A stretch of 64,000 bases of DNA from Phorcus lineatus (Eukaryota; Mollusca; Gastropoda; Trochida; Trochidae). Each line of letters opens with the position of its first letter. Position 1 is the stretch's first letter. Location: NCBI GenBank assembly GCA_921293015.1, contig OV121090.1:4898001-4962000 (forward strand), read 5' to 3'. Below, piece after piece: positions 8,591 through 47,040 of the stretch. A program made the position numbers and the translations under genes. Below the pieces are notes generated by a model. That model ran no database searches, had not been told where the DNA came from, and was given only the letters and a program-made list of their open reading frames with translations.

Positions 8591-8796
8591 TTTTTAAAAG
8601 TATCATTTTTCTATCAATTTGTTATGATCCTCGTAAAGTATTTCAAAAGTATTGTTAGACATTTCTCATCATTATAATGACTTTACAAAAAACAATATGT
8701 AATCAGAAAACAATGAATTGAAAATGAAACATTTCCTATGCATCCATTGAACTTTTTGTACCTATCCAAGGAATTTGTTACTGGATCATTGTTGAG

Positions 8797-9112
8797 ATGA
8801 AACGTGGATTCATCACTGGGATCCTGACACCAAGCAAGAATCCATTTAATGGTAGGATAAACACCCCCTGTATCAAAGAAATTCAGAACTCAGCAGGCAA
8901 GATCATGACGAACATTTTCTGGAATTCAAGGGACGTGATAATTATAGACCATAAACCAACTAAACCTAGAATAACAGGATCCTTCTATGCTGGCTTTTTG
9001 AGGCAATTGATAGAGGCGTTCAAGAAGAGGCGCTGCATGTTGACTGCTGGAGTTATGCTTATTCATGACAACGCTCGTATTGCACAGACCGCATTTTAAC
9101 AATGTGGCTTTG
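8797..9112 (+). pseudogene. mariner-type transposase fragment
   Basis: The middle of a mariner transposase. An FWNSRDVIIIDHKP stretch corresponds to the family's FWD-x-G-V-I-IDYLP region, and LIHDNARIAQTAF corresponds to the LLHDNARPHTA segment carrying the second catalytic Asp. The first catalytic Asp block (V-T-x-DE-T-W) is missing upstream, and the frame ends at a stop soon after the second Asp, so it cannot be active. A more complete member of a related family lies at 50733-51984 on the other strand. Confidence 0.75.
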
Positions 9113-11827: not shown

Positions 11828-13483
11828 TTAGTTTGAGTTAGTGTCTGTGGGAGGAACACTGTCCTTTGCGTTGCCGATGAAGTTAACATTGATGACACAG
11901 TTGCTAACGGAACCACCGAAGATTGAGTTGATTGATCGAAATTCGGAAGCACTGACGCTGACATTTCTAGAATCGACCGAAATCGGCAAGGATGACCTTG
12001 CCCGATCTACTGACGAAAGCCCGCTTGACCCGGATTCGGAGGTCATGTTTACATTTGAAGAAGACGGACGTTGGTTAATAATTGTGCTGATATCTCTGTG
12101 CTGTTTCTCGGACAACTGAGAGTAATTATTTATGCTTTGCATATTTTTGTGACCACTAATTTGCATGATTTGATTGGGAGGAATGTTACTCTCCGACAAA
12201 GTTTGGACCAAATACTTTCGAGCCGAGTGGTTTGTGAGACGCTTACAATCAAGCTTGCAATTTTGAGCCATTCTCCTCATCAGTGCACCGATTTTGTTGA
12301 TACCCAAAGGCTGGCGCTTATACCAAGGATGTGGGATTGCTGGTGCAGTTTTCGAATTGGTGGCCAGATAAAAAGGACAATCGGCAGCGGAAAAATCTGA
12401 TGGTCTCAATTCAGCATACCGTTTGTAGGCTGCAACTGGACATCGGTCAGTGTTAGTGGACCATGCTTTTGGGACAACAGTGCGAACGTCTCGAGTATTC
12501 ACTCCTGTACGTGTTTTTGTCTGACTCTCATTGTAGGCCAGATACTCAACACCGTTTGTGTCAGTGTGAAGTGTCACATCACCCCACTTCATTTGCTTAT
12601 GTGGAGTTACTGTGCGAAGACCAAAATGAATTGTATTGTGCCACCATAATGTATTGATGAGCGACTGAGGATTATGCAACCCTAATTCCCCGGATTTCCA
12701 CAAAGTGTTTATGTCATCTTCACTCAAAGACTCAGCTCTCTGTGGTAAGTTTCCCTTTCCACTTTGTTTTAGGATTTTTTGCTTTGTTTTGAGGACTTCC
12801 CGAACGCTAGTGAATTCCACGTCCATCATAATCGACTTGCCATATCCCCTTTGTTTTAACAAGCGATCTACACTGCTTATGATACCTCTCACAGTAGAAG
12901 GTTCATATTCGGAACCGTCAACTTTTTTTGCATTGATGATAAATTTACAAAGAATTTTGCAAAGTTCCTCTGGTGGAATAGAATGAATCTCTCGTTTATC
13001 GTTCTCCAAGGCCATGAATTTTGTCAAAATTCTCACATCATAGTTTGTTTTCCGAGCTGTGTTGACATTTTGATTTGTCTGTATATATTGTGTGATGTCT
13101 TCATCAGTACAGTATGCAGGTGCTTGTTTTTGGTCATTTTTATCTTCAATTTCATTGCTAGAGTCATTGAATAGGTCTTCAAGTTCTGCCCGTGTAGGAA
13201 TTTGAATGCATACAACATCTTCATTCAAAATTTCGTCAAAATCGACCCCTGATAAGTAAGCATCAAATAGGCCTATGTCATTGTCACTCACATTCATAGT
13301 CGATGTTGTTGTCACAGTTTCGGGCATACGTTGTAGTCGATATCTTGCAACTTGCATTGTTGACCCATTTTCTAGTTTCACGTTGAACATATGGTATGTC
13401 CCAATTGGTTTAACAATTGACGAGACACGTCCTCTCAATCTGCCATCAACCTTTACACAATCGTTTACTTTTATGATATCCAT
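11828..13483 (-). CDS. Crypton-type tyrosine recombinase (DUF3504-like)
   Basis: A single uninterrupted ORF of 551 codons from the ATG at 13483; the frame opens further upstream but without another ATG. Residues about 265-475 form a phage-integrase-fold tyrosine recombinase. Arg290 (in HFGLRTVTPHKQ), HSAR at 419-422, GHK around His445 and Tyr454 (in SINNYS) supply the expected R...H-x-x-R...H...Y set. The N-terminus (about 1-60) is a compact VKVDGRLRGRVSSIV domain of possible SH3/Tudor type. Residues 145-245 look like the helical core-binding domain. The Ser-rich tail ends SIFGGSVSNCVINVNF, a style seen in Crypton-derived DUF3504 proteins (QRICH1, ZMYM and KCTD1 relatives). Cryptons move as circles by this enzyme and lack RT and long terminal repeats; none are seen here. 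Either a live Crypton or a domesticated copy. Confidence 0.85.
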   Translation of the reverse strand: MDIIKVNDCVKVDGRLRGRVSSIVKPIGTYHMFNVKLENGSTMQVARYRLQRMPETVTTTSTMNVSDNDIGLFDAYLSGVDFDEILNEDVVCIQIPTRAELEDLFNDSSNEIEDKNDQKQAPAYCTDEDITQYIQTNQNVNTARKTNYDVRILTKFMALENDKREIHSIPPEELCKILCKFIINAKKVDGSEYEPSTVRGIISSVDRLLKQRGYGKSIMMDVEFTSVREVLKTKQKILKQSGKGNLPQRAESLSEDDINTLWKSGELGLHNPQSLINTLWWHNTIHFGLRTVTPHKQMKWGDVTLHTDTNGVEYLAYNESQTKTRTGVNTRDVRTVVPKAWSTNTDRCPVAAYKRYAELRPSDFSAADCPFYLATNSKTAPAIPHPWYKRQPLGINKIGALMRRMAQNCKLDCKRLTNHSARKYLVQTLSESNIPPNQIMQISGHKNMQSINNYSQLSEKQHRDISTIINQRPSSSNVNMTSESGSSGLSSVDRARSSLPISVDSRNVSVSASEFRSINSIFGGSVSNCVINVNFIGNAKDSVPPTDTNSN

Positions 13484-13559
13484 TTTTAATTTCCCAAGAC
13501 ACGGTAGGAAAGATCGTCTGCTATAAATTAACGGGTATTTTTTAGCTAAGTAAAACACA

Positions 13560-15229
13560 AAAAAAGATGAAATCTGATGGTTTTATTTGATCAAATTTAT
13601 TTAGAAACAGCTAAACATGTTTTTTAAAAGAATTAGACTTTTATCTCGTATTTTATCAAAGTTAAGAGAACATTATTTTTGACAGTCGCCATTTTGATTT
13701 ACATCATCACGTGATAACTTGTCATGTGACTACAGGAAAATAGTTCCGGATGCGATCGCTTTCACGTGCAATGTTTCACAACAGTGTTGAATAACATGTC
13801 ATTGTTTCACAACCGTAGTATCTCCAACGAGAGTGTAATAAGATGTTTTATGAAAGCAATTTTGTAAATCAGCCGATTTAATAACACAGTATTAGCATTG
13901 TTATTAGATTGACCATAGCGGCTGCCTTTTCCGCTTCTCTGGTTATGAGCAAAATTTTAATATTTCCAATATCGTAGTTTATGCGGATTTAATGTAACGT
14001 AACATTAAATACTTCCGGCCTTTAAAAATCCACTTTACTACCTGAACACGTAAATATTTTGTTAAATAACTTACGAGGTAGATTACCTGAGTGAGGATAG
14101 TGAGTAATATCGAAAGATATGTAGTATCTTTGCAGACGTTGTGTTTACGAAATATTGGCGTGCACTAGTGCGTTTAAGCTATATGCCCAAAGTTACGGTA
14201 CATGTGTTGCATAAATAGTAAACGTTACAAAAGGAAGATTTTATCATGCTGATGCAGCAGATGTCGTAATTAATGAACGTTTATGAAGATAAGCCACAAG
14301 CTTATTTTCAAAAATTTCAGAGTGAGAATTGTGCATGAGACAAAAGCGTTTTCAATCTGAGAAGATATGGGGTTTTTAAATAACTGTTTCATACAACATA
14401 CCCTCTTGCAAGGTATCGGTAATTCGATATTGAATTATTATTGTTCATGAAAACATCCCGCCAATTTATATTGAAAATATCAGAGCCTACATTGATATCT
14501 TTTATTGCTTTACATGTTCATTAATGTCAGTTTGTATGTAGTTGCAATGTAGTGTTGTTGTAGTTGTTATGTTGCATGCAATAGATTATATAAAATGAGG
14601 AACATCTTGACAATGATGCATTTTCAAGTGTAAGATAAGTTACCATTTTACAAAGCGTTAATATTGTAAGATATTCATTCATATCAAATTTGACACGAAT
14701 CAAAACCATATATTTCACATTTATAAGTATAAGAACATTGATTTCGAAAGGGCTTTTGCCGATCTTCTTGGTTATTACGAATTCATTCAACTGAAAACTA
14801 CAATATTTATGACATATTCCTATGCTAGAATGCCATTCAAGAAAATACCTTAATTTATAGTTGCGTCTCTAATAAATTTGGAGTTATGGTCAAAAGATTG
14901 TCTCTTTCAACTGTTGCTTTCTGGAATCAGGCTATTTTCTTGGGTTTGTCATAGTTTTTTTTATTTTTTCGTAGAAGATTTAAGTACTATATGGGAATGA
15001 GATATCTTCAAATCATCAAAATGAATTCGTTTACGGTTTTAACAAAATAAAAGACAATATTCATTATATTACAAATTCATAGGTCCTTTAATTTTAAGAA
15101 GTACAGAGCATGACATTACATGAAACATTTAACCTTCACCCTGCTGGATTGTTTGCAGGTTTTTACAGAGAGTAAAAAATGTGTATAATTTTAAAAGATA
15201 CGTCAGATAGGTATCCCTCATGTAGAGGT
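13560..15229. other. gene-free stretch
   Basis: AT-rich intergenic sequence. The motif gagagtgtaataag at 13832-13845 is an inverted match to ttattacactcttt at about 11492-11505, so the two flank the recombinase ORF as a 12-13 bp inverted pair. No other structure recognised. Confidence 0.4.
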
Positions 15230-15429: not shown

Positions 15430-15789
15430 TTACAGTCCCATTGACTCGAGCACCAGATCCAAAGGTGTTGCATTTCCTCCCTCCGTTGCTATGGGAACAT
15501 TCGCTGGGGCAGGAACCTCGTTGATTTGAGGTTGAGTTTCCACAGCTGGGTCACTAGGTTCTGCAGGGCTGGCCTCCGCGCCTCCGATTGGTTCTTTCTT
15601 ACCGCCTTCAGCGGCGCTTGTGATTGGCTTCTTCTCAGCACCTTCAGCACCGCTCCTGATTGGTTCTTTCTCTCCAGCCTCTGCTGGGGAGAAATTTCTC
15701 TGACAGGTAGACCTTCCGTTTGCAAATCGGCAACTTAGGCCAGAACAGCATCTCAATACGCTACTGCACACAGCATTCTCCCGCTGGCA
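15430..15789 (-). CDS. terminal exon: knottin domain plus acidic/Pro-rich tail
   Basis: Acceptor TTTCCAG then CQRENAVC at 15789; 119 codons and a stop. The first about 29 residues hold a divergent domain with C-x6-C-x5-CC-x4-C-x8-C spacing. The remaining about 87 residues are cysteine-free, rich in Ala, Glu, Pro and Gly, and begin with three imperfect 12-residue repeats of the form AEGxEKxPIxSG. It ends LVLESMGL. The exon lies 4 kb from its nearest coding neighbour because transposons have inserted in the intron. It is assigned to this gene because of the shared cysteine order, the identical phase-0 start on the first Cys, and the strand. Confidence 0.75.
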   Translation of the reverse strand, partial: CQRENAVCSSVLRCCSGLSCRFANGRSTCQRNFSPAEAGEKEPIRSGAEGAEKKPITSAAEGGKKEPIGGAEASPAEPSDPAVETQPQINEVPAPANVPIATEGGNATPLDLVLESMGL

Positions 15790-18700
15790 CTGGAAATGAG
15801 GATTGAGGATGAGAGGATTGATGAAGTGAGGATTGATGATGAGAGGATTGATGAAGTGAGGATTGATGATGAGAGGATTGATGATGAGAGGATTGATGAA
15901 GTGAGGATTGAATTTGAGAATTGTTATTTAAGGATTGTTTTACATTTTTTGTGCCTCTATCGATGTATAACAGCAACAAATTGTATAACATCGCGTAGCG
16001 AAGCGAAGCGATGTTATACAATTTGCACTGTGTTATGATCTTCCGATCATAACACAGTGCATCTCCTTCCGTGCTACAAGCAACATATCAAGACAGGCAA
16101 GGCTGAAATAAAGACATTCAAGTCATGGGACCCTGAATCAATTCTTCAACTTCAGGGCTGTTTCGAGTGCAGGACTGGGACGCACTGATGGCCGGGAGCT
16201 CCGACCCTGATCAAATGACGGACACTATTACTAGCTATATAAACTTTTGTGTAGATTCTGTTATACCATCTAAAACAATTAAGATTTTCCCCAATAATAA
16301 ACCTTGGGTTACAAAAGATATGAAAAATCTTCTGAACAAGAAGAAAATAGCATATTGTAAAGGGGATCTATTAGAAGTTAAAAGTATCCAAAAAGATATT
16401 TCACTATAAATGAAAAATTGTAAAGAAGAGTTTAAACGCAAGGTGGAGAAGGAATTTTATTGTGGCAATTCTAGGAAAATGTGGAATGGTTTAAAATCCA
16501 TGATTGGCATTGATAAAAAGAAAGAACAGATATCCAGAATTGATGACAAGTCTTTTGCTGAAGACTTGAATTCATTTTATGCCAGATTTGACCAAAGAGA
16601 TTTCTCAGAAGAATTACAAAATGAACTTCATTCATCGATCTTCTTAGGTTCCACAAATGACATAAGAATTAGCGTTGACAACGTAAAATCATGTTTTCTT
16701 AAAATAAATATACGGAAAGCAACTGGGCCAGATAATCTAAAAGGAATTGTTCTCAAGTCATGTGCTGATCAACTTTCCCCTGTATTTTGCAAGCTTTACC
16801 AGACCTCTCTTGACTTTCACAGATTACCAATAGTATGGAAAGAATCAACAATTCTTAACAAAAGTATGGAAAGATAGTGCTTCCCTTCCTCTTGCAAAAT
16901 ATAAGTCATATGTTGGATCCATTACAGTTTGCCTACCGTACCAAGAGGGGTGTTGAAGATGCGACTCTAACGATGTTGAATAAACTGTATAACCACCTTG
17001 AAACTCCCAAATCTTACGCCCGTATTTTATTCGTGGATTTCTCATCTGCTTTTAACACAATCTAACCTCATCTCCTTGTCCGCAAGCTTGTAAACATGAG
17101 TGTCGACCCCTCTTTGATAAAATGGATAAGTGATTTTCTAACAAACAGGTCACAATCAGTTCATGTCAATAATTGTCATTCTTCAATTGTTACTGTTAAT
17201 ACCGGCGCTCCACAAGGGTGCGTTCTATCACCTGTTTTATTCACTACATATACAAATGATTGTGTTGCACATGATCCTTCCTGCTCAATTGTCAAGTATG
17301 CGGATGATGCAGCTCTAATCGCTCTATTGAACTCTAATGAAGATGGATATCGTTCAGAGATATCGAATCTTTCTGACTGGTGCAAAGGAAATTTTCTTTA
17401 TGTAAATGTCAAGAAAACAAAGGAAATGATTTTTGATTTTAGAACCGGGGAAAAGTTGTTGGAACCTGTGAATATGAACAATACTCCGGTTGAAGTCGTA
17501 TCAGAATATAAATATATAGGTACAATCATTGACAATAAGTTGACTTGGAATAGCAACACAACATCTTTGTACAAAAAATGCCAACAGAGACTCTACTTTA
17601 TGAGGAAATTAAGATCTTTTGATGTTGATGTGAAATTGATGAAAATATTCTACACTTGCTTTGTGCAAAGCGTTCTTTCTTATGGCATTCAGTGTTGGTA
17701 CGGCTCTCTCAGTCTTCAAAATAGAAACAGGATAATCAAGATTGTAAATATAAGCTCAAAGATTGCTGGCACCATACTTGAACATCCTGCGTCAATATAT
17801 GATGAAAATATGCTAACTCATGCACGTAAAATTATTTCTGATCCAACACATGTCTTACACTCAGAATATTCTCTTTTGCCCTCTGGAAAACGTTTTAATG
17901 TTCCTTACCATAGGTCAAATCGAACCAGGAAATCATTCATACCCTCGAGTATTACAATTTTAAACAAGAGTTCTGAACATTGTTAATGATATCAAAACTG
18001 CTTTGTGCGGCTTGTGTAATTATATAAATATGTATGTGTGTTGTTTTTTTTTTTTTTGTGTATCTATATTGCATTGCATAGTATTATCCTTCCATAGTAT
18101 TGAATTCTTATTGTTAAGTTTTACATGTATCTTGTCATGCTCTGTCGGATGTAAGAAGAATTCCCTTCTGGGTAATAAAGTGTTATCTTATCTTATCTTA
18201 TCTTTAACGCGATGTTGTCATAACCGGACTAGCCGTTGCGTCAATTTGTTCTGCCAGATTGTGACGTCATAAAGTATGAATGCACGAGGTATAACAGCTA
18301 AATTTTCTGCATTCATCGAGAAATGGTTGCATGTTTTTGAGAGCTCTCGTCCAATCAAAATCGCCGAAAAACGTGTAACAACATCATTTTGTAATTATTA
18401 GATGGTTAAAGAAAATTTTGATCATTATTTCAAGTAGATTTGTATCGAAAGAGAAAGCACTTTTGCTATGGGTAATCAGGGTGATCTCATGAGAACGAAA
18501 GAAAATGTTACAGTTTGAAAAGCAATCTGTTCTAGTCAAAAGAAGGAGTTCTCAGACGAACGTAACTTGTTCGATTAAGCAACGTTAAGCTACGCCAATA
18601 GTTTTCGCTTGATTATTGATACTTTCTTATACGACTACAGATAATCGGGTTGAGTCATGAAGTTTTTTACCCTTTATAGATTTTGCGTTTGGAATAAATA

Positions 18701-21700
18701 GAGAATCTGATGATAAAAGTTACAAATATACGAGGCTTGCCGATGATATTTTACTTTTATCAACGAGTGTTGATATATTTGATATCAGAAAACACGAGGG
18801 TGAGATTCTATTTATCATCCAAAATCATTTTACATTTCGATTAAGTGGAAAATGTGTATTTCTGAATACTGCACTACTCTAACACTCTCAGTGGAGTGAT
18901 GTCATAACATTGTGACGTCATTATGTTTATGACGTCATAGCATTGTGACGTCATTATGTTTATGACGTCATAGCATTGTGATGTCATTACTTGATGATGT
19001 AAAACAATTGTGATGTCATGAACTTGACTGTAATAGGGTATTGTTCAAAATCTACTGTCAAAACGATATCTCCTAGGAGATATCACTTGATCTTCCACAA
19101 GCGATTTCTTCTGTGGAACACAGTTTTGGATGATAAACATATATCTCCTACTAAACCTTGTATCTATTGTCCATTTCAACCTGCCTTTTTGAGAAAACAC
19201 ATTGCTCATGATCCATGATTCGTCGAATACTCCCTTGCCCAGTTTTTGTAAATTTTCGCAGATAAAAACGTTTTCTTGCGGACCTTTTTTGTTGTTGTCT
19301 ATTCATAGGCAGCAGTGTGACATTTTTGTCAAGTGAGGACACGTTATTGCAATATTTTTTCTTTTTAAAATGCGTGAATGTGTTATACAATTTCTAAACA
19401 CAAAATGTGACGTTACTACTAAATGTATTGTGGCTGTTATTGTCAACATTAATATACCCCATTAACGACGTATAACAAAATGACAACTTTCCGTTAACCC
19501 GTATTAAGGTAATTTCTTACGTTTCAGGATATTACTACGATGAGCTTAACATACTTAAAAAGGTAACTTGTAGAGAGATAGGAAAATAATGTTGAATTTG
19601 TTCATCTATTGTTTTGACGGCGTGTGGCAGTCTAATGGGCACTTTAAGACTATCAAGGTATAAAATTTAAGTTACATTAACAAAACATACTAAAAACGTC
19701 TTGAACATATTATGTTTCCTACCTAAAGAGCATACAAATCCAAAAGGTACAACATTTGGCTAAAAGGTCGCCATGCTTTTTCTTACCTGTCCATTGCCTG
19801 ACCTACACGTGTAAGATCCCTGGTAAAAATTACAATTACCACTACAACATCTTCTATTTTGGTTGTTAGGGTCGCAAGTTAGGTTGTCCTCAATGCACTG
19901 AAAAACATGATAGTATGTTGGTGTTTTTTAAATAAATGAATAACTAACAGGCCATAAAATGATATGTGGATTGAATTTATTAAATGAATTGTTTCTTACC
20001 TGTCCATTGCCTGGCCTACACGTGTAAGAGCCCTGGTAATAACCACAGTCACCACTGCAGCATCTTCGGTTTTGGTTGTTGGGGTCGCATGTTTGGTAGT
20101 CTTGGATGCACTGACAGTATTAAAGATTGTGTTGTCAAAATATATTCTTTGGTTTTCAATCAATGATAAATAATGTGCAAGATAAAAAGTACAAAATTTA
20201 GCCTCAAATCTGTCCATTGCCTGGCCAACACGTGTAAGATCCCATGTTATAATTAAAGTCACCACTGCAGCATCTACGGCTCTGGTTGTTAGGGTTGCAT
20301 TTATGGTAGTCTGCTATGCACTGCAAGTAGTGAGTTTGTTTTAAGACAATTAAGGGGTTGTTGATGTATTGAAATATAACCAATATGAATCACCAGTTGG
20401 ACAAAGAGATCATTAACAGGTCTAAGATGCCATTTATAATCGAAAACCGGACAATTGCGCGACAATGACTCAAACGTAGTTATGGAATCTTATTGTCAGC
20501 AGGTACAAAGGCAAATATTGGGTGGTGGTGTTTGGTAAGTCATGTAAATGATATTCATCTTAATTGAAACTGCAATTACAACTTCTTAACATGTAATTTG
20601 GCAGTTTTGGTGTTATCCTAATATGAGCATTTTGAAGATAAAGATGCAAGTTTAGGAATATTTGAACTTGACACAGGACAAATAGTAATTTGGTTCTTAT
20701 TTACGCCACAAGAAATAACTTTAAAAATACTGTGTCACTTTTAGAAGTTTTACCAAGATAACTTAAAGTTAAGTTGATCTAAACTCGAGTTTCTATTTCT
20801 TACCTGCCCATTGCCTGGCCTACACGTGTAAGAGCCCTGGTTATAACTGCAGTCGCCACTGCAGCATTTTCGGTTCTGGTTGTTAGGGTCGCAAGTTTGG
20901 TAGTCTTGTATGCACTGCAAGTAATACGTTTGTGTTTTCAAAATGTATAGTTGTGTTTCCATTGATAACAAAAGAATATTCTTAAGGAGGGAAAATATTT
21001 CATCTATATTTCGAAAATGATGTTTGTAACTTGTCCATTGCCTGGTATGCTCGTGTAAGAGCCCATGTTATAACTACAGTCACCACTGCAGCATTTTCGG
21101 TACTCTATGTCAAGTTTTATCAAGATAACTAAAAGATTATTTGACCTAAACTCGAGTTTCTATTTCTTACCTGTCCATTGCCTGGCCTACACGTGTAAGA
21201 GCCCTGGTTATAACTACAGTCACCACTGCAGCATTTTCGGTTCTGGTTGTTAGGGTCGCATGTTTGGTAGTCTTGTATGCACTGCAAGTAATACGTTTGT
21301 GTTTTCCAAAGGTATAGTTGTGTTTCCATTGATAATAAAAGAATATTCTTAAGGAGGGGAAATATCTCATCTATATATAGAAGATGATGTTTCTTACCTG
21401 TCCATTGCCTGGTCTACATGTGTAAGAGCCCATGTTATAACTACAATCACCACTGCAGCATTTTCGGTTCTGGTTGTTAGGGTCGCATGTTTGGTAGTCT
21501 TCTATGCACTGAAAATAATATGGATTGTGATGTCAGAATGTATGGTTCGATTTCAATTTATGGCAAAAAGACATGCCCATGAAGGGACAGGTGGCTAATG
21601 TTTAAGGAACATACAAATCAAAAAGTACAATATTTTGCTCAAAAGTCGGTTCCTTTTTTTTACCTGTCCATTGCCTGGCTTGCACGTGTAAGAGCCCATG

Positions 21701-24700
21701 TTATAACTACAGTCACCACTGCAGCATTTTCGATTCTGGTTGTTAGGGTCACAAGTTTGGTAGTCTTGTATGCACTGAAGACGTAAGATTGTGATGTCAG
21801 GATTTATTGTTTTTATTTAAATTCATGCAAAACAAACATTGAAAAGAAGGGTAAACGTTTGACCTAAACTCGGTTTTCTGTTTCTTACCTGTCCATTGCC
21901 TGGCCTACACGTGTAAGAGCCCATGTTATAACTACAATCACCACTGCAGCATTTTCGGTTCTGGTTGTTAGGATCACAAGTTTGGTAGTCCTGTATGCAC
22001 TGCAAGTAAATAAATGAGATTGTGTTATCAAAATGTATGCGGTGATTTTGATCAATTGTACAAAGAAAACTAAAGGAGCGGTACGTAGATTGACCTAAAC
22101 TCGATTTTCTATTTCTTACCTGTCCATTGCCTGGCCTACACGTGTAGGAGCCCATGTTATAACTACAGTCACCACTGCAGCATTTTCGGTTCTGGTTGTT
22201 GGGGTCGCATGTTTGGTAGTCTTCTATGCACTGCAAGTAATACGTTTGTGTTTTCAAAATGTATAGTTTTGTTTCAATTGATAATAAATAAATAGCAATT
22301 GCTTTGCGTCAATCTGATTCGTTGAACACGGTAATAGAAGTTCAGTTCATGCCTCCATAAACTTAATTTCGTGACGTCACATCATTTTAAGCCACGCCTA
22401 TCGACGGAACTATTTGTAAACAAGTTACGTTTTTCTAAAAATAGCAACACTTTGTGCCATGCCACTTCTTGAAAGTAGGTAAATAAAAAATTAACATAAT
22501 TCAGTATGAAATAATTATTGTTGCCAAAGGTTCTAAAGGTAGTCCTTTTCATAATAAACAAGAGAGCTCTATCAGAAATTACAACCGATCGTGTTCCACC
22601 CCACAGAAGGCAAATGTCATTGTTCAATGCTCTCGTGGCCGTTGCAGGGAGGTTGGCAAAGTAATGTCGTTAAGTTCATGAACAGAGTTAAGCTTGGCTC
22701 CTCAACAAGTTTAAGAACAGTGTGCTGTTTCATCAGATTCCGTTAGATCGAGATCATAACACCACCAGTATATGGCATCTACGAGGGTAAATTCGGCTGG
22801 TTTCCTCTCCGAGTTCTACGTTCGCGATCTGTGTTTACAACTGTGAGAATTAGCAATGTCAAGACCACGTGTGACGGACGTACGATAAGTTCATGGCCAA
22901 GTGCGATTTAGATTTTCATTGGCTGATGAACGTTTTGTAGGCGGGGCTAGGGATCCGATGACGTTTTGATTGACATTTTATCTCTTTCATGCTGTTGAGC
23001 GTTGAATTCATTCGCGTATATAGTGCAGCTCTATTTGGTGCAAATATGTATATTTAGAGCAATAAAATGTTTTTAAAACAACTAGTATGTATATATTTAT
23101 TTATAAGAATTGACTTCAACATTTATTAAGTTCATGGAGGTATAAACTTAAAAACCGATGTGCAAACTCGNNNNNNNNNNNNNNNNNNNNNNNNNNNNNN
23201 NNNNNNNNNNNNNNNNNNNNNNNNNNNNNNNNNNNNNNNNNNNNNNNNNNNNNNNNNNNNNNNNNNNNNNNNNNNNNNNNNNNNNNNNNNNNNNNNNNNN
23301 NNNNNNNNNNNNNNNNNNNNNNNNNNNNNNNNNNNNNNNNNNNNNNNNNNNNNNNNNNNNNNNNNNNNNNCAACTAGTATGTATATATTTATTTATAAGA
23401 ATTGACTTCAACATTTATTAAGTTCATGGAGGTATAAACTTAAAAACCGATGTGCTAACTCGGCGTAAATCCGCTACGCGGAATCACACAGTTTGCACAT
23501 CGGTTTTTAAGTTTATACCTCCATGAACTTAATAAATATTGAAGTCAATTCTTAGATAAAAGAACATTTATAAGAAAGGTAGATATTTTACCTAAATTTA
23601 AAATTTTGTTTCTTACCTGTCCATTGCCTGGCCTACACGTATAAGAGCCCATGTTATAACTACAGTCACCACTGCAACATTTTCGGTTCTGGTTGTTAGG
23701 GTCGCATGTTTGGTAGTCTTGTATACACTGAAAATGATATGGATTGTGATGTCAAAATGTATGGTTGTATTTCAAGTCATGGTTAATGACATGCCCATGA
23801 CGGGGAAGATGTTTTGACCTAATATTGGTATTTTATTCCTTACCTGTCCATTGCCTGGCCTACACGTGTAAGAGCCCATGTTATAACTACAGTCACCACT
23901 GCAGCATTTTCGGTTATAAAAGAACATTTATAAGAAAGGTAGAGATAAAAGAACATTTATAAGAAAGTTAGATATTTTACCTAATTTTAAAATTTTGTTT
24001 CTTACCTGTCCATTGCCTGGCCTACACGTGTAAGAGCCCATGTTATAACTACAGTCACCACTGCAACATTTTCGGTTCTGGTTGTTAGGATCGCATGTTT
24101 GGTAGTCTTGTATACACTGAAAATGATATGGATTGTGATGTCAAAATGTATGGTTGTATTTCAAGTCATGGTTAATGACATGCCCATGACGGGGAAGATG
24201 TTTTGACCTAATATTGGTATTTTATTCCTTACCTGTCCATTGCCTGGCCTACACGTGTAAGAGCCCATGTTATAACTACAGTCACCACTGCAGCATTTTC
24301 GGTTCTGGTTGTTAGGGTCGCATGTTTGATAGTCTTGTATGCACTGCAAGTGATTAGTTTGTGTTTTTAAATTGTATAGTTGTGTTTCCATGGATTTTGA
24401 AATGAAATGTATAAGAAAGGAAAGTTTTTTACCGATTTTCAAAGTGGTGTTTCTTACCTGCCCATTGCCTGGCCTACACGTGTAAGATCCCATGTTATAA
24501 CTGCAGTCACCACTGCAGCATTTTCGGTTCTGGTTGTTAGGGTCGCATGTTTGATAGTCTTGTATGCACTGCAAGTGATTAGTTTGTGTTTACAATATGT
24601 ATAGTTTTGTTTCTATCGATTTGAAAGGAAATTTATTTGAAAGGAAAATATTTAACCTATATTCGAAATGGTGTTTTTCTTACCTGTCCATTGCCTGGTC

Positions 24701-27700
24701 TACACGTGTAAGATCCCATGTTATAACTGCAGTCACCACTACAGCATTTTCGGTTCTGGTTGTTAGGATCACAAGTTTGATAGTCTTGTATGCACTGCAA
24801 TTAATGAGTTTGTGTTAACTAAATGTAAAGTTGTATTTCTATTGATTTCAAAGGAAATTAATTAGAAAGAAAAATATTTAATCTCTATTCGAAATGATGT
24901 GTCTTACTTGTCCATTGCCTGGCCTACACGTGTAAGATCCCTGATTATAACTGCAGTCACCGCTGCAACATTTTCGGTTCTGGTTGTTAGGATCACAAGT
25001 TTGGTAGTCTTGTATGCACTGAAAAACAAGAGATTGTGTTGTAAACATGCATGATTTAAAATCTTTTTATGGTTAGAACCATAACAGAAAGGGAAGATGT
25101 GAAGGCCCTCTTAGTGATACGGCGTTTCTTACCTGTCCATTGCCTGGCCTACACGTGTAAGATCCCTGATTATAACTACAGTCACCACTGCAGCATTTTC
25201 GGTTCTGGTTGTTAGGATCACAAGTTTGGTAGTCTTGTATGCACTGAAAAACAACAGATTGTGTTGTAAACATGCATGATTTAAAATCTTTTTATGGTTA
25301 GAACCATAACAGAAAGGGAAGATGTGAAGGCCCTCTTAGTGATACGGCGTTTCTTACCTGTCCATTGCCTGGCCTACACGTGTAAGATCCCTGATTATAA
25401 CTACAGTCACCACTGCAGCATTTTCGGTTCTGGTTGTTAGGATCACAAGTTTGGTAGTCTTGTATGCACTGAAAAACAAGAGATTGTGTTGTAAAAATGT
25501 ATGATTTAAAATCTATTTATGGTTAGAACCATATCAGCAACAGAAGATTAAAAGCCCTCTAAGTGATAAGGCGTTTCTTACCTGTCCATTGCCTGGCCTA
25601 CACGTGTAAGATCCCATATTATAACTACAGTCACCACTGCAGCATTTTCGGTTCTGGTTGTTAGGGTCACAAGTTTGGTAGTCTTGTATGCACTGAAAAA
25701 CAACAGATTGTGTTGTAAACATGCATGATTTAAAATCTTTTTATGGTTAGAACCATATCAGCAACAGAAGATGTGAAGGCCATCTAAGTGATACGGCGTT
25801 TCTTACCTGTCCATTGCCTGGCCTACACGTGTAAGATCCCATATTATAACTACAGTCACCACTGCAGCATTTTCGGTTTTGGTTGTTAGGATCACAAGTT
25901 TGGTAGTCTTGTATGCACTGAAAAACAAGAGATTGTGTTGTAAAAATGTATGATTTAAAATCTATTTATGGTTAGAACCATATCAGCAACAGAAGATTAA
26001 AGGCCCTCTAAGTGATAAGGCGTTTCTTACCTGTCCATTGCCTGGCCTACACGTGTAAGAACCCATGTTATAACTACAGTCACCACTGCAGCATTTTCGG
26101 TTCTGGTTGTTAGGATCACAAGTTTGGTAGTCTTGTATGCACTGCAAGTAATGAGTTTGTTTTATGAAAATAATGGGTTTTGGATGTATTGAAATATAAA
26201 CAAAATTAATCCCTAAAATGTTTGGTTTACACGTATTAAAACGCCTAATGTTGGCATAAGATTGCGAACAGCACATGTTGACATTTTTGTCTACACTTGA
26301 GTGATCACATGTATTTCTGACAACGACAATTTCCGATGTATATGTATGTATATATTCCATTCCCAACTTTAGATATTATAAAAAGTTATATAGTTGAGGG
26401 TTATATAAACAATTTTAAGCATCGAGAATATTGAAGGCTTTTATTTCTCTTAAGATCGGGGGAATTACCATTAATGATAAATGTTGGTTAATGAGGCGGT
26501 ATTGTTCGGAATGAAAGATTTTGTAGAATGTGTATGGATGGATATATTGAAGATGAATACCATTTTGTGTTACTTTACCAATTTGAGAGATAATTATATT
26601 CCTAAATATTTCTGGAAAAATCATTCTATCCATAAATTTTATTAAAGAAGCTTTAAGGATACGATGTGTTTGAATTGTGTTTCAAACCATTATTTCACTA
26701 TATTTACTTATTCTAAAACTTTTGTGCTGGAGCCGATGGCCTTTATTCCGAATAAACATTGACTTAACATTAAATTTAAACAGATTTTTGAAACTGAATA
26801 CCAATACTCTATATTACATTTATCAAATGCTTACTCTTTATATACGTAGCTCACAATATACGTAGCAGTTTCTTTGGCCTACTTTAACCAAGGGCAGGTA
26901 ATTCAGTAGGATATTCCGACTGCAATGTCACCGATTTGATGAAGTGAAGAGCTTGGGGACATTTAGTTTGCCTAATTTCGATTTCGTGTTACGAGGAATC
27001 AGTCATGAAAAATGACTGTAACGGGACTAACTCCTTCTATAAGGCTCTATCCTCTTACGTGCAAGGAGTTTGGCTGATTTCAGACCGTAGTAGGGAGGAA
27101 AGCCTCTAAAAGAACGGGTTCGAATCAAGGCAGTAGAACTATTACAAAAGAAATCTCCTCGGGACAAGGTCGTGTTTATCAGAATGATACAGAAACCGCT
27201 TTGTGTAGCATATTAGCACTTTATAACAATCTCAAAGTGCTAATTACAGTCTTTGAATTAGTAGAATGGACCTTTAACATCTATTTCATTTGAAGTAAAA
27301 ATGTAGCATTATATAACAATTTTAAGAATCAATCGAAAACATAATCTTGTAGAACTGTTCGAATCCTTATTTATTATTTGACTCATGTTGAGAAACATGA
27401 ATATGTAACGGTTCAAAATATTAAGTGTTTATTGGCGGCTTGAAAAGGGGGGTCCAAATTTCGACATCGCCCCGTCCCCTTCCCGACCCCTGACTAAGGC
27501 TTTACGTGGTTTATTCTGATATTATTCACCTGTCCGCCTCCACTGCAAGTGGGGATTCCGTTGCTGTTAGTTACACACTGCCCAGAACAACACCGCCTCT
27601 GACCACCGTTAGGGTTGCACAACTCATTTTGGGGGATACACTTTAAACAATAAACAAAAGATGTTAATTCTTTTTTTATCAAGGATAAAAAAAATTTCAA

Positions 27701-29196
27701 ATACCGACGTAGTCATACAAATTGAATACATATTTGATTCAGTGAAGTTTTTCATGCAGCATATTTGAAAATAATAGACCACATTTAAAATTTATATATG
27801 TGTGTGTATATATATATATATATATATTGACGAAATACTAGTATCGGATTAAAATGATTCTGCAAACGACTATGTGAAGTAAGTTATATTTAATATATAT
27901 ATATATATATATGTTTAGGATGATTATATAAGATGCAATTAAGTCAAGCCCAAATTAATCAAGTGATTCTTTAACAAGGAAAACACTACCTAACGTAAAA
28001 TCTCGTACCTGCGAGTTTCCGGAAGAACAACGGTAAGAGTTGCCGTTTTGTGTGCATTTACCCGATCCGCAACACTGAGTCAACATCGGGAGACAGGGAG
28101 AATTCGCTTCAGTGCACTGTCAAACATATGAATGATCGTATTCTAGGGACAATATAACGGAGAGAACGCTAGGTTAGTTCTATTCTCGAATTCGATCGGT
28201 TCAAATCCTTTCTAAAGATGCCATGTTCAAAACGTAAATTTCATGTAGTTGAAATGCTATTTTCATCTTACTTATTTGTAGGTAGTAAAATCCTCTTGAC
28301 ATTAGAAGAAAAAGGTGAGTTAATAACCGAAAATATTCATTATCAAAATTATATCAATTGCCCAATTAACAATATTTAAATAATATCTACGAAACAATTA
28401 TTTTTCCTCAATTGTCCATAAGATCCAGTCATTGGCATTAGTCTAGCTTCAAAAAGTCACTTGAGGCATTAGTCGAACTTCAAAAAGTGGCTTGAGGCAT
28501 TAGTTGCTGCAAAACTTTGATTTGAGCCATTATTCGAGCTATAAAAAATTGATAAATGAGTCAGTTCTCATGTTTCAAGGATTGTGATGAGGCAGTGACA
28601 GTCGAGATTCAAGAAACTGGTATTTGGCATAAGTCGAACTGCAAGAAACTGGTATTTGGCATTAGCCGAACTTCAAGAAACTGGAAATTGGCATTAGTCG
28701 CGATTCAAGAAACTGATATTGGGCATTTGTCAAGCTTCATTTATTTGCCCAAAACCTACCAAGGAATGATTTTCAATAAAACAATAAGTGAATTCTGTCA
28801 TCCTCTTAAACAAACTTGAATTTATACGAATATCAAACATCTCCTGGATTTGTCAGTCACTGTCAGTACTCACACCTGTAAAACCCTTACAAAGATCTCA
28901 CTGCTGCAGAGCGAAAATCAGAAATACTCGACAAAAATAACTTAGGGATATTATATATTAATGATTTATATTTCATAAGGTGAAATGAGATGATAACTCT
29001 AATGATTTCTAAACTTCCTCATATTCCTAATTATTTTTGAGTTAAACTTGCTAAACTTTGAGTTAAACTTGATCTTCAAAGACCTCACCATTTTGGTTGG
29101 ATTGTCCCCCTCTGTTTGTCTGACTTCCACTTCCTTCTCAGCTGAGACGCAAAACATCACCAGCAGAGCGTAGAGCAGACCAGGTAACCACATCAT
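15430..29196 (-). CDS. secreted tandem-knottin polyprotein gene (whole CDS span)
   Basis: Multi-exon gene with signal exon 29089-29196, divergent six-Cys exons 28009-28116 and 27530-27640, nineteen intact 111-bp six-Cys exons between 26141 and 19787, and terminal exon 15430-15789. Every junction is GT-AG and phase 0, so each internal exon is a self-contained 36-37-residue module. If all intact exons are used the product is about 930 residues with 22 domains. Cys spacing in the core exons is C-x6-C-x8-C-C-x3-C-x8-C, the order shared by inhibitor cystine knots, including conotoxin framework VI/VII, spider knottins and some antimicrobial and inhibitor peptides. Domains are joined by a six-residue linker (RPGNGQ) with no dibasic processing site, so a beads-on-a-string secreted protein seems likelier than a precursor of free peptides. 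Function is unknown; defence, mucus, shell matrix or toxin-like roles cannot be told apart from sequence. Confidence 0.85.
15797..15912. repeat. 12/24-bp minisatellite beside the last acceptor
   Basis: Iterations of gaggattgatgaagt and gaggattgatgatga units. On the gene strand this is a run of CATCAATCCTCA-type pyrimidine-rich units ending about 7 bp from the acceptor of the terminal exon, so it may serve as an extended polypyrimidine tract. Confidence 0.9.
15930..16065. repeat. foldback element, family F1 copy 1
   Basis: Two adjacent hairpins: aaattgtataacatcgc / gcgatgttatacaattt around a gtagcgaagcgaa loop, then gcactgtgttatgatc / gatcataacacagtgc. The left flank (ggattgttttacattttttg then gcctctatcgatgtataaca) recurs at 49765-49815, so this is a mobile family. 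Confidence 0.8.
16066..18205 (+). pseudogene. 5'-truncated non-LTR retrotransposon (CR1/Rex-like), dead
   Basis: Reverse-transcriptase ORF in pieces: a linker region with FPNNKPWVTKDMKN (about 16290), fingers with KATGPDNLKGIVLKSCA (about 16716), palm FVDFSSAFNTI (17033-17065), GAPQGCVLSPVLF (about 17203), and the catalytic YADD at about 17298 followed by the thumb. Inactivating lesions are a frameshift near 16160, a stop at about 16407, loss of the block between WKESTI and LDPLQFAYR near 16850-16900, and a stop right after FNTI at 17063. It ends in a TCTTA/TATCT tandem tail at 18182-18202, as CR1/L2/Rex elements do. It sits sense-reversed inside the last intron of the knottin gene. Confidence 0.9.
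18206..19786. other. remainder of last knottin intron
   Basis: Non-coding. Contains the CRE-bearing tandem repeat at 18895-19020; otherwise AT-rich with no recognised element. Confidence 0.5.
18895..19020. repeat. about 33-bp tandem repeat with TGACGTCA palindromes
   Basis: About three units of the type tgacgtcattatgtttatga. The perfect CRE palindrome TGACGTCA occurs at 18913, 18930, 18946 and 18963, and degenerate TGATGTCA forms follow. It could bind CREB/ATF-type factors, but the repeat structure alone explains the clustering. Confidence 0.85.
19787..19897 (-). CDS. knottin exon, array position 19 (last before the terminal exon)
   Basis: 111 bp, donor CAG|gtaaga. The most divergent intact array member: it starts CIEDNLTC, has RRCC instead of RKCC, GNC in place of GDC, and RSGNGQ as linker. 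All six cysteines are kept. Confidence 0.85.
20000..20110 (-). CDS. knottin exon, array position 18
   Basis: 111 bp with good donor and acceptor. RRCC before the third and fourth Cys, and GDCGYYQGS in loop 5; six cysteines conserved. Confidence 0.88.
20210..20320 (-). pseudogene. degenerate full-length knottin exon
   Basis: Aligns over all 37 codons but the fifth cysteine is Phe (TGT to TTT). The donor GT is lost (CAG|attt), and a stop codon lies in frame one codon past the exon end (20204-20206). It also has CIADYHKC and CWPGNGQ changes. It is either skipped or, if included, terminates the protein here. Its upstream intron (20321-20390) resembles the one beside the first array exon (26142-26210), not its immediate neighbours. 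Confidence 0.85.
20415..20735 (+). repeat. dispersed repeat family A, partial copy in a knottin intron
   Basis: Contains the family landmarks taatcgaaaaccggacaa and cgcgacaatgactcaaacgt, and a tttgaacttgacacaggaca region. Its insertion explains why exons at 20210 and 20804 are 594 bp apart instead of about 225. Confidence 0.55.
20804..20914 (-). CDS. knottin exon, array position 17
   Basis: 111 bp, Gln form of loop 5 (SYNQGSYTC), starts CIQDYQTC. Both splice sites are canonical. Confidence 0.9.
21031..21101 (-). pseudogene. truncated knottin exon B
   Basis: Only the 3' two thirds of the exon remains. It diverges abruptly after the NRK-CC block (plus-strand gcattttcggt), losing cysteines 1 and 2 and the acceptor. 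The sixth cysteine is also changed (TGT to AGC), and the donor is weak (CAA|gttaca). It lies inside a 367-bp duplicated segment. Confidence 0.85.
21171..21281 (-). CDS. knottin exon, array position 16
   Basis: 111 bp, Gln form of loop 5. Its downstream flank matches that of the exon at 20804, as expected for a recent 367-bp duplication. Confidence 0.9.
21398..21508 (-). CDS. knottin exon, array position 15
   Basis: 111 bp, starts CIEDYQTC, Met form of loop 5 (SYNMGSYTC). Canonical splice sites. Confidence 0.9.
21664..21774 (-). CDS. knottin exon, array position 14
   Basis: 111 bp, Met form; the linker is KPGNGQ instead of RPGNGQ. Confidence 0.9.
21889..21999 (-). CDS. knottin exon, array position 13
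   Basis: 111 bp, consensus Met form. The intron between this and the exon at 22120 is 120 nt and free of stops in frame. Confidence 0.9.
22120..22230 (-). CDS. knottin exon, array position 12
   Basis: 111 bp, starts CIEDYQTC, Met form. It is the first intact exon on the 3' side of the foldback insertion and assembly gap. Confidence 0.9.
22290..23078. other. inserted non-coding segment in a knottin intron
   Basis: About 790 bp with no similarity noticed to the array. It carries catgcctccataaacttaat at 22349, related to the arms of the palindrome at 23396-23555, so the whole 22.3-23.56 kb block may be one inserted element of which the palindrome is an end. Slightly more GC-rich near 22750-22930. 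No ORF. Confidence 0.5.
23079..23170. repeat. gap-flanking copy of palindrome arm
   Basis: Almost identical, in direct orientation, to 23371-23462 on the far side of the N run. This suggests that two contigs ended in the same hairpin arm and the gap is an overlap rather than missing sequence. Confidence 0.85.
23171..23370. other. assembly gap (200 N)
   Basis: Exactly 200 N, a fixed-size scaffolding gap. Frames that appear to run through it are artefacts. Further knottin exons could be hidden here. Confidence 0.99.
23396..23555. repeat. long palindrome (foldback) at the gap edge
   Basis: Arms of about 58 bp (aagaattgacttcaa...tttaagtttatacctcc type) around a loop containing cgtaaatccgctacgcggaa. 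The structure explains the failure of assembly here. Confidence 0.9.
23617..23727 (-). CDS. knottin exon, array position 11
   Basis: 111 bp, first Cys codon TGT, Met form. Its intron matches the one next to the exon at 24006, marking a 389-bp duplication. Confidence 0.9.
23844..23915 (-). pseudogene. truncated knottin exon A
   Basis: Intact donor side, but homology stops at plus-strand gcattttcggtt, so cysteines 1 and 2 and the acceptor are missing. A direct repeat of ataaaagaacatttataaga (23916 and 23945) follows at the junction. The breakpoint lies within two bases of that of truncated exon B. Confidence 0.88.
24006..24116 (-). CDS. knottin exon, array position 10
   Basis: 111 bp, first Cys codon TGT, Met form, consensus protein. 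Confidence 0.9.
24233..24343 (-). CDS. knottin exon, array position 9
   Basis: 111 bp, Met form, consensus. The 114-nt intron separating it from the exon at 24458 is open in frame. Confidence 0.9.
24458..24568 (-). CDS. knottin exon, array position 8
   Basis: 111 bp, Met form, consensus; only synonymous differences from neighbours noticed. Confidence 0.9.
24684..24794 (-). CDS. knottin exon, array position 7
   Basis: 111 bp, Met form, consensus protein, canonical splice sites. Confidence 0.9.
24908..25018 (-). CDS. knottin exon, array position 6
   Basis: 111 bp, Gln form of loop 5. The final codon is CAA, so the donor context is CAA|gtaaga, slightly weaker than CAG|gtaaga elsewhere but still canonical GT. 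Confidence 0.88.
25133..25243 (-). CDS. knottin exon, array position 5
   Basis: 111 bp, Gln form. The exon and both introns are almost identical to the next unit at 25358, so this is a very recent 225-bp duplication. Confidence 0.9.
25358..25468 (-). CDS. knottin exon, array position 4
   Basis: 111 bp, Gln form, sister copy of the unit at 25133. Confidence 0.9.
25582..25692 (-). CDS. knottin exon, array position 3
   Basis: 111 bp, Met form. Its 3' intron pairs better with the unit at 26031 (449 bp away) than with the adjacent one, a hint of a two-unit higher-order repeat. Confidence 0.9.
25807..25917 (-). CDS. knottin exon, array position 2
   Basis: 111 bp, Met form, consensus protein, canonical splice sites. 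Confidence 0.9.
26031..26141 (-). CDS. knottin exon, array position 1 (5'-most of the array)
   Basis: 111 bp, Met form, consensus. Preceded by a 1.39-kb intron that separates the homogeneous array from the two divergent leading domains. Confidence 0.9.
26430..26700 (+). pseudogene. LINE 3' ORF fragment in a knottin intron
   Basis: A frame near 26515 reads CRMCMDGYIEDEYHF, the C-x-x-C...iEdE-x-HF module typical of the C-terminus of several invertebrate LINE proteins. It is followed after a frameshift by NYIPKYFWKNHSIHKF. No polymerase domain is present; dead 5'-truncated copy, antisense to the host gene. Confidence 0.6.
26701..27529. other. intron sequence
   Basis: Probable LINE 3' untranslated region up to about 26760, then unremarkable AT-rich intron. 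No exon or element ends seen; a B-box-like gggttcgaatc at about 27116 is isolated. Confidence 0.45.
27530..27640 (-). CDS. second divergent knottin exon
   Basis: 111 bp, phase 0-0. Starts CIPQNELC; spacing C-x6-C-x8-CC-x3-C-x9-C; ends CSGGGQ before donor gtgaat. It shares the loop lengths of the array exons, so it is the likely closest relative of the amplified unit, but it is only partly similar in sequence. Confidence 0.85.
27641..28008. other. intron with TA repeats and a Penelope-like scrap
   Basis: 27843-27912 (gattaaaatgattctgcaaa through a TA run) is an inverted match to 31034-31098, which is the end of the Penelope-like fragment there. TA runs lie at 27808-27830 and 27893-27912. Confidence 0.6.
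28009..28116 (-). CDS. first divergent knottin exon
   Basis: 108 bp (36 codons), phase 0-0, donor CAG|gtacga, acceptor gacag. Starts CTEANSPC; spacing C-x6-C-x6-CC-x4-C-x8-C; ends CSSGNSQ. It is the N-terminal domain after the signal peptide and is clearly diverged from the array. Confidence 0.85.
28433..28740. repeat. degenerate 31-36 bp minisatellite in intron 1
   Basis: About eight imperfect units of the type ggcattagtcgaacttcaag with aaactggta or aaagtggctt endings. Open frames here are repeat artefacts. Confidence 0.75.
29089..29196 (-). CDS. signal-peptide exon of the knottin gene
   Basis: 36 codons from ATG at 29196 (a second ATG follows directly) to donor ATG|gtgagg at 29089. Residues 1-19 (MMWLPGLLYALLVMFCVSA) form a textbook secretory signal with a VSA cleavage motif, followed by a short acidic propeptide-like segment EKEVEVRQTEGDNPTKM. 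The phase-0 end matches the phase-0 start of the next six-Cys exon. The open frame continues into the intron but without homology. Confidence 0.85.
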
Positions 29197-44799: not shown

Positions 44800-47040
44800 A
44801 AATTTAGGCAAGAAAGGTCAAATCACAGCGGAAAGTACCATCACTCGATCATCACACATATATTACAGGTTCATCCGTTGTCTTATCATTCAGGTAACCT
44901 CGATATATGTAAGTGACTTTCTAATAGCTCTGTAGATAAACACAAAGATCAGATATGTGATAGGTTAAAGACTATTTACGTGTTCAATTAACACACACGT
45001 CGTCTCAAGGGAAATCAAAGATTTTGGAAATGAAATTTTAATGAAAGGCAACGTGACGGTGTTCGTGATTTTTGAGCTCAAATTGTACTCGGAAAACCGA
45101 TACTGTACGTGGAAGGACATAACCATCTCAAAGAGATCGATCACATTTCGTTGGAAGATGCAAACAATTCGTGGAGCCTTAGTTAGGACTGTATATGGTG
45201 TATGCTGAATAGCGAACCCAAGCAAGATCAAACATCAGTTATTCGTTCAGATTTTATTTCTTTTGGCATACTTATGGTGGTACATGAACCTGGACTTGAT
45301 GCGGAAACATGCGTGTCTGTGCGTGTAGTAAAAAGCTGAAACAGTTAAGGCCATCATAAGTCCATTTGTAAACAATAAATGGAGAATATAATTGTTCTAT
45401 ATTTGCACAATCGATAAATACCCTTAACAGCTTATTTTATGTAGAATTGCTTACAGAAATGCTGTGTACCTTTAAATAAGATTCCTGGGTAATACATACC
45501 ATTAAATCACAGGAAAAGTGTGAAAAATACTGGAACATACCGTTAATAACCTCAACAACATTTGTTGAGATATGTATTAAATAAACAAACTACATTGTCC
45601 ATGAGAGAAATTTTGGTGAAAAGAAATTCACAAATAAAGTGATGGGAATTGCAATAAAATTGCTAATATTTATGAAAATAAATGAAGCGCTACACTAAAT
45701 CTACATTCCTAATACAGGGGAAACCCTTCTAAAAAGATATAGCTGTAATGTTTACAAACATTAGATCAAGGGAGATAACTCCTGCCCCTAGGTGGTAACT
45801 GAGAAGTGATATTTGAGATTTTACTAGCGCTTCAGTAGGTATTCTCGAAAGAACATCACTGGGAATATTACACAAAATTATAACCAAAAATAAGACGTTA
45901 TATTAACCTGAACTTACAATGGAAAATGAATATATTTCTTTTATATTACAATACCAGCAAAATATACCATAGAATATGCATGAAAAACATTGCAAAACAA
46001 GTGCCTGGTTACAAACAATACATTGCCTAAAATACTAATTACACATGAGATGTCACCATGAAATAATTGAAATAAGAAATACATACACTTTGGTGATTTA
46101 TCAGTGGTCCTGTGTACGTAGTACATATCCTTAAAGTACAAAACATCAGCGTATACCGCTGCCTGGCCGAAAATGACGGCTTTACCATCTCAAACATGGC
46201 GACGAAACCTCGCTAGCCAAAGTAAAATGCACGTGCAAATCGTGCGCCTGAAAACCGGTTAGGGCAAACCGGTTAGGAAAACTGGTTTAACAGAACGAAA
46301 TCAGTCCCGCTGTCACTGTGACAGCACATGGTGATTTTTCAGAGGATTCGGGAACTCGGTTTGTTTTAAAATGACGTTAATGTTTGTACCTACTTTCTGT
46401 CGTAAGGAGATACTAAACCAATTTCATTTTGACTTCTCGTATGAAATTGCTCCTTATAGATTTTCTATGCAGGGAAACATGTCAGGCAGAATATATAAGT
46501 TTGACCCTTCACTTCTTTTGAGTCGCATATGAATTCTTACTTGTAACTGATCAAAATGATTAGTGACATTTTAGATTTATTAAAAAAATTGTTGGTTTAG
46601 TCTTGGCTTTTGCATTTGTGGTCTTAACATTATATGATATTTAATGATATGAAGATCAGATCTATTGATGAATGATTGATAGTAGACTGTATCACAAAAG
46701 CTTAAATCAAAGCATCCATCGCAATGGCTTTACTGTCGATATCGTCCTGGAACTCCACCAGTGTGTTTTCGAAACAGCTGTAACTAAGGTGTAACATACG
46801 GTTCTAATTAATTTTCGCATCAATCGCATCTCTTTTCATTGATTTTTTCCCTTCGTGACCCGTACGTCCAGAAGCCGATTGAATAGTTTGTATTTTTGGG
46901 ATGAAATATGTGTTTACGGATGATGAAAGAACCCAAACTATAATAAGCTGACTAAATAAATAAGAACTCTATCTAATTGAAGAGACTATTATTGTTTAAA
47001 TTGTAAGTGTTAGATTGTTTCACTGAACCAGAATGTAACT
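44800..47040. other. gene-free stretch
   Basis: No gene. caagggagataactcc at 45769 is a short motif I associate with mollusc repeats. 46236-46290 holds three aaccggtt-type half-palindromes (gaaaaccggttagg, gcaaaccggttagg, gaaaactggttt). Confidence 0.4.

Follow-up and report, generated by a model that had tools for sequence, protein, structure and literature searches.

The window analysed here, a 64,000-nucleotide stretch of the genome of the gastropod Phorcus lineatus (assembly GCA_921293015.1, contig OV121090.1, positions 4,898,001 to 4,962,000), carries on its minus strand, between 29196 and 15430, a predicted gene in which an array of short exons encodes one knottin-type domain each (coordinates are those of the window throughout). 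With at least 23 exons and 22 domains, this gene probably specifies a secreted multivalent necklace, that is, a single chain that is kept whole and binds its target by avidity; we assign this reading a probability of about 0.6. The locus had been singled out in a first-pass annotation, which described a secreted knottin polyprotein encoded by a satellite-like array of exon-intron units.

Gene model and organization of the array

A six-frame scan of the window for the C-C-CC-C-C cysteine pattern returned 22 rows, every one of them on the minus strand and between 28116 and 15703. A single 37-residue domain, encoded by 111-bp exons, accounts for nineteen of these rows, and the other three are divergent domains, D1, D2 and D3, also borne by phase-0 exons; the resulting 22 six-cysteine domains agree with the number of about 22 given in the first-pass annotation. 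The 23 exons of the gene model, each with a length divisible by three, join into 931 codons without internal stop and end with a stop codon at 15430-15432. AG/GT borders in phase 0 are found at all 22 exon junctions, and an AATAAA motif lies 188 bases past the first base of the stop codon. All exons would be spliced into one mRNA, as far as can be judged from the sequence.

The exons flanking the array differ from the repeat. Exon 1 (29089..29196, 36 codons) contains the start codon and a hydrophobic signal-like segment, for which a nine-residue Kyte-Doolittle window reaches 2.7 within residues 7-19, and ends at a phase-0 donor, GTGAGG; it is assigned to the same gene by phase and proximity only. 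This exon encodes a predicted export signal, and the product would be secreted as one chain. Exon 2 (28009..28116, 36 codons) encodes D1, which by tblastn within the window is 39% identical to D2 and, across 38 aligned columns, 42-45% identical to three copies of the repeat. D2 is encoded by exon 3 (27530..27640, 37 codons). The last exon (15430..15789) comprises D3 (15703-15789), an acidic tail and the stop codon. The tail is rich in Ala, Glu and Pro, has an isoelectric point (pI) of 4.36 and is built of 12-residue repeats, visible in the DNA as 36-bp repeats at 15582-15676; a 15-bp minisatellite (15798-15911) lies directly upstream of the last-exon acceptor. A signal-like exon upstream and a different domain with a tail downstream are found at the two ends, as previously proposed, each in phase 0. 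The predicted mature chain of about 912 residues, with a calculated mass close to 100 kDa, is acidic (pI 5.2), and a single repeat domain is near neutral, with a charge of -0.6 at pH 7.4.

All 19 intact repeat exons of the first-pass annotation were recovered at the same coordinates; they lie on the minus strand, measure 111 bp or 37 codons and are in phase 0-0. The upper ends of the first ten are 26141, 25917, 25692, 25468, 25243, 25018, 24794, 24568, 24343 and 24116, and those of exons 11 to 19 are 23727, 22230, 21999, 21774, 21508, 21281, 20914, 20110 and 19897. In each repeat exon the first codon is that of Cys1, immediately preceded by CAG, and the last codon, for glutamine, is immediately followed by GT. 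These borders are kept in 19 of 19 copies, and the donor reads GTAAG in 18 of them and GTAAA in 21664-21774. The cysteines are spaced x6, x8, CC, x3, x8 in the repeat, and the C-C-CC-C-C order is present in 22 of 22 domains.

The array consists of two parts. Ten intact exons form a regular block (24006..26141) with a spacing of 224-227 bp and introns of 113-116 bp, exactly as annotated for these exons. This regularity does not extend to the other nine, which make up an irregular part (19787..23727): 23617-23727, 22120-22230, 21889-21999, 21664-21774, 21398-21508, 21171-21281, 20804-20914, 20000-20110 and 19787-19897. Their spacings range from 213 to 1497 bp (389, 1497, 231, 225, 266, 227, 367, 804 and 213 bp), and the five other short introns that were compared measure 102, 114, 116, 120 and 155 bp. 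The 17 core copies match the consensus at 36 or 37 of 37 residues, and the last two copies, at the downstream edge, at 33 and 27. The first repeat, at the upstream edge, shows no change and is adjoined by the exon of D2, which is far more different.

Damaged units are interspersed with the intact ones. A full-length but decayed repeat exon (20210..20320) has lost Cys5, and its donor GT is changed to AT. Two further copies are truncated: 23844..23915, apparently resulting from an imprecise duplication of a 389-bp unit, and 21031..21104, inside a 367-bp tandem unit. In addition, a 200-N assembly gap (23171..23370) lies within the array and could conceal further repeat units. It is surrounded by an inverted repeat (23086-23572) with 83-nt arms, 88-89% complementary, which is perhaps a foldback insertion or one resembling a miniature inverted-repeat transposable element.

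Protein-level constraint on the repeat exons

The differences between repeat copies are strongly biased towards synonymous changes. Among the 17 core exons there are 25 synonymous and 4 non-synonymous site changes (P 5e-12 or less), and among all 19 there are 28 and 13 (P 5e-9 or less), whereas the neutral expectation is 75-82% non-synonymous for transition/transversion ratios (kappa) of 1, 2 and 4. In these counts each variable site was scored once per extra base, with no tree, and the copies are not independent, but recombination among them favours neither class of change. Across the 171 pairs of repeat exons, pS is 0.33 and pN 0.027. The decayed copy provides an internal control: 9 of its 11 changed codons are non-synonymous, which is the neutral share, and the difference from the core is significant (Fisher P 1e-4, comparing codons in the decayed copy with sites in the core).

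The splice borders are also conserved. When ten introns were compared by position (three of a closely similar group, i1-i5, and the longer introns having been excluded beforehand), the five bases at the 5' end and the three at the 3' end were invariant, while identity at the fourth-last base was 0.44; further in, it was mostly 0.2-0.6, with a few positions at 0.8 or more. Collectively, these data support the annotated coding domain array, the repeat exons being coding and under protein-level constraint. We reject a satellite without coding function, given the excess of synonymous over non-synonymous changes and the contrasting behaviour of the decayed copy. An origin of the repeat from non-coding RNA or tRNA was also rejected, as there was no Rfam match at the gathering score and no tRNA in the window.

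Domain class and predicted fold

The best solved relative of the repeat is ALO3 (PDB 1q3j), a single-domain knottin with antifungal activity from the beetle Acrocinus longimanus, whose likeness to the present gene is at the fold level. It was found with a profile of nine window domains at E 0.0038; a single-sequence search gave an E of only 0.23, with identical spacing of the first five cysteines in the two aligned sequences. An AlphaFold2 model of the repeat has a predicted local distance difference test score (pLDDT) of 83.5 and a beta-hairpin at 21-25/28-32. Foldseek returned 13 weak rows (E 1.4-7.9), all of which we take to be knottin-type miniproteins, the structural neighbours being mostly venom knottins. 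Of the seven rows of the single-sequence PDB search, six are designed proteins, three of them named as tetratricopeptide-repeat proteins (TPR or CTPR); we treat these as chance, the two printed alignments matching mostly non-cysteine residues.

None of the five domain queries scored above the cut-off of any Pfam model. Below threshold, the best models were plant-type trypsin inhibitors for D2 (E 0.0073) and Plasmod_Pvs28 for D1 (E 0.063); Conotoxin (PF02950) gave E 0.64 with the repeat and scored 11.5, 9.8 and 11.2 bits in three of the five queries, against a gathering cut-off of 25.1. Four domain queries matched no NCBIfam model, a collection built for bacteria and archaea, at E<=10. Assignment of the repeat to the knottin-type domains is supported by the profile match and, weakly, by the structural comparisons, in agreement with the inhibitor cystine knot (ICK) type named in the first-pass annotation, and the cysteines are predicted to pair 1-4, 2-5 and 3-6.

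Duplication and homogenization of exon-intron units

The introns diverge far more than the exons that they separate. When 14 introns were aligned together, those of the central block named i1-i5 differed from one another by 1-11% and the others by up to 59%. Among 78 pairwise alignments of 13 intron interiors, the 58 pairs with p>0.3 average 0.41, as compared with 0.42 for shuffled sequence, whereas nine four-fold exon sites differ by only 0.23 in the same 58 pairs. The exons are therefore more alike than the introns even where protein selection should not act. Conversion confined to exons, or a constraint on splicing signals within the exon, could explain this low four-fold divergence; nine sites cannot decide between them. 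An ACACAA-like stretch was seen by eye near the 3' ends of several introns.

Duplication of whole exon-intron units, as previously claimed, is apparent at two places. The 389-bp unit was reported by Tandem Repeats Finder (TRF) with 98% matches, and 363 of 389 positions agree in an ungapped comparison whose last 27 positions lie beyond the TRF end; the 367-bp unit has 92% matches, with 336 of 367 positions identical. Furthermore, third-position distance grows with distance along the array, both for the 19 exons (Mantel r 0.34, P 0.001) and for the 17 core exons (r 0.24, P 0.015). A core that is kept alike, next to a downstream edge with two diverging copies, fits unequal exchange. Since only five introns are close and intron interiors of different subgroups align no better than shuffled sequence, we read the locus as an exon array of old date, only part of which is young. 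Regularity is confined to the ten-exon block, and the array as a whole is not a recent satellite.

We tentatively propose a mechanism that would link these features. Frame-neutral exon-intron units, each carrying one knottin head, would be gained and lost by unequal exchange, perhaps together with exon skipping, so that individuals would differ in chain length. Homogenization confined to the exons would keep the heads identical despite the loss of almost all likeness between introns, and avidity would be set by the copy number. In our judgement, this proposal has clearly less than an even chance of being correct.

Occurrence in the genome and search for relatives

The P. lineatus genome (957.8 Mb, 74 contigs) was searched with one repeat domain as query; of 23 candidates that were scored, 22 matched at E<=0.001. 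All 22 are at this locus, where they correspond to the 19 intact repeat exons plus the decayed and both truncated copies; such counts are lower bounds, so that the genome holds at least 22 repeat units. Within the window, a weak D1/D3-like match at 54468-54556 on the plus strand was discarded, as it has frame shifts between its two pieces and lacks the cysteine pattern.

Among 5.8 billion proteins, no homologue was found in 3579 candidates of about 227-723 residues at E<=1, nor in 18 candidates of about 101-320 residues at E<=10. These searches reach up to 723 residues, which places relatives of about 20 domains outside their range, and cysteine-rich single domains may be missed. Since the database does hold animal proteins, as seen with a control open reading frame (ORF) of the DUF3504 family from the window, the negative results carry some weight for multi-domain relatives of the lengths covered. 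Five peptide strings from the repeat had no match in the literature, and no knottin chain with more than five domains was found in the literature searched, which comprised titles, beginnings of abstracts and passages of mainly non-subscription papers.

Other elements in the window

The DUF3504 ORF (11828-13582, minus strand) is an open frame of 584 residues of the DUF3504/tyrosine-recombinase type, whose named relatives include KIAA1958-type proteins; it possibly belongs to a Crypton-like element. Among 120 of its 209 relatives listed, 21 name an organism, and we group these as 16 molluscs, 2 cnidarians, 2 hemichordate entries (one species) and 1 bacterial metagenome-assembled genome. For a gene of mobile-element type, this composition points weakly to a molluscan source of the window. 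An interrupted remnant of a reverse transcriptase of the long interspersed nuclear element type (16410-17986, plus strand) lies, on the opposite strand, within the last intron of the knottin gene, which measures 4.0 kb. Transposase fragments (Pfam Transposase_1), which we take to be mariner-type, are found at 8728-9099 on the plus strand and 50791-51261 on the minus strand. A 28-bp minisatellite of 19.5 copies (47027-47566) has minus-strand open frames of 117 and 178 residues.

Discussion

In the proposed working of the chain, exon 1 would provide the export signal, each of the 22 following exons would contribute one small knottin and the last exon would add the acidic tail. The domains would be joined by short linkers (six residues between Cys6 and the next Cys1 in the repeats), and the many near-identical heads, kept alike by selection and local exchange of units, may bind by avidity a repetitive target such as a microbial surface or the extracellular matrix. 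Since the exons hold whole domains and are in phase 0 at both ends, unequal exchange or exon skipping would alter the length of the chain without breaking either the frame or a domain. None of the linkers contains a Lys/Arg pair. Such pairs are located before the CC in D2 and in the 19 repeats, plus twice in the tail, and none occurs ahead of residue 87, itself inside D2. Linkers without dibasic sites, together with uniform loops, make an intact many-headed avidity chain the most economical reading.

The same near-identical domains would also suit a precursor polyprotein from which one small knottin is released in many copies, with the array serving as gene dosage. A four-domain anemone precursor with domains cut apart is described by the authors of the survey of secreted cysteine-rich repeat proteins (SCREPs; PMC6262176), and the cutting of mCRP-I, the tandem knottins of Mytilus, could not be excluded by the authors of that study (PMC10138031). 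We consider a precursor unlikely here, because the linkers are free of Lys/Arg pairs and because the repeats have their dibasic sites within the domain, ahead of the CC, so that cleavage there would destroy it, even if other proteases could still cut at a single Arg or Lys of a linker. Somewhat less likely still is that the array is an exon reservoir, from which alternative splicing takes one or few repeat exons to give short proteins of variable length. Any number of phase 0-0 exons could be skipped without a change of frame, and the introns of the central block are very short and uniform in length; yet, with 17 near-identical core copies, exon choice would alter length but hardly sequence, and CAG, GT and, with one exception, GTAAG are kept throughout the repeat exons.

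The abundance of venom knottins among structural neighbours would fit a venom or defence toxin array acting as a multivalent ion-channel ligand, as do the double-knot toxins of spiders and remipedes, but toxins dominate the solved knottins and skew this comparison. Moreover, the best Conotoxin match to the repeat is below cut-off (11.5 vs 25.1 bits), the loops are almost invariant among copies, and neither the near-neutral repeat nor the acidic mature chain favours this function, which we regard as improbable despite the high-avidity channel binding by tandem ICKs in venoms (PMC9950431). Finally, the decayed and truncated copies, the mobile elements and gap inside the gene and the lack of homologues in our searches could point to a satellite that is decaying or not transcribed, a derivative of what was once a knottin exon, homogenized by recombination without any function. 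This is highly improbable: homogenization does not favour synonymous changes, yet their ratio is 25:4, the splice borders are conserved while the introns diverge, and the single full-length decayed copy behaves like neutral sequence, unlike the rest.

The necklace organization that we favour has partial counterparts among described proteins. Those of mCRP-I are also molluscan, several C-C-CC-C-C knottin arrays per chain, in variable number, being secreted, as predicted here (PMC10138031). They comprise 16 groups with two to five arrays, more than the one or two knottins per protein that the first-pass annotation considered usual, and their predicted architecture is called 'pearl necklace-like' (PMC10138031). 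Their arrays are always located in the fourth and final exon, for which reason the authors hold exon duplication implausible (PMC10138031), in contrast to the 22 domains with one exon each of the present gene. The mCRP-I spacing, C(X3-6)C(X1-7)CC(X3-4)C(x3-5)C, differs from the x6-x8-x3-x8 of the repeat, and the dibasic propeptide site (KR or RR) required in mCRP-I (PMC10138031) is absent here. Whereas Mytilus CRP-I peptides are hypervariable (PMC10138031), the loops are uniform among the present copies. Mytilus sCRP-I H1 showed no significant antimicrobial or protease-inhibitor activity, and its authors suggest defence against eukaryotic parasites (PMC10138031); with an antifungal protein as the nearest solved relative of the repeat, the fold therefore does not tell the function.

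Spider bivalent and trivalent ICK toxins likewise have tandem domains, short linkers (in those of the Hc1a kind, three residues are conserved and three to five vary) and domain gain and loss via unequal crossing-over, but their two or three domains lie within one exon and arose by intra-exon duplication, as opposed to about 22 intron-separated domains here; a triple-domain ICK had not been described before, to the knowledge of those authors (PMC13172734). The remipede venom toxin Xt3a, with two domains, is an independently arisen ICK tandem with avidity (PMC9950431). SCREPs also carry tandem disulfide-rich domains in an exported chain, as predicted here with 22 domains, and in combinatorial SCREPs different domains flank a repeated core; their mining was limited to 20-500 residues (PMC6262176), which would have left out a product of about 912 residues. 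An array of about 22 knottin domains, one exon each, is beyond the closest described tandem knottins, which in the literature passages searched have two to five domains, within one exon where the gene structure is given; the view that no protein of this architecture had been described is upheld to that extent.

To these tandem knottins with a multi-domain part inside one exon, this locus would be a counter-example, a knottin repeated up to about 22 domains through duplication of exon units. Its decayed and truncated units serve as internal controls, which makes both the exchange mechanism and selection for identity directly testable. The locus would be a natural model, too, for the way in which a disulfide-knotted binder acquires its valency and has it adjusted.
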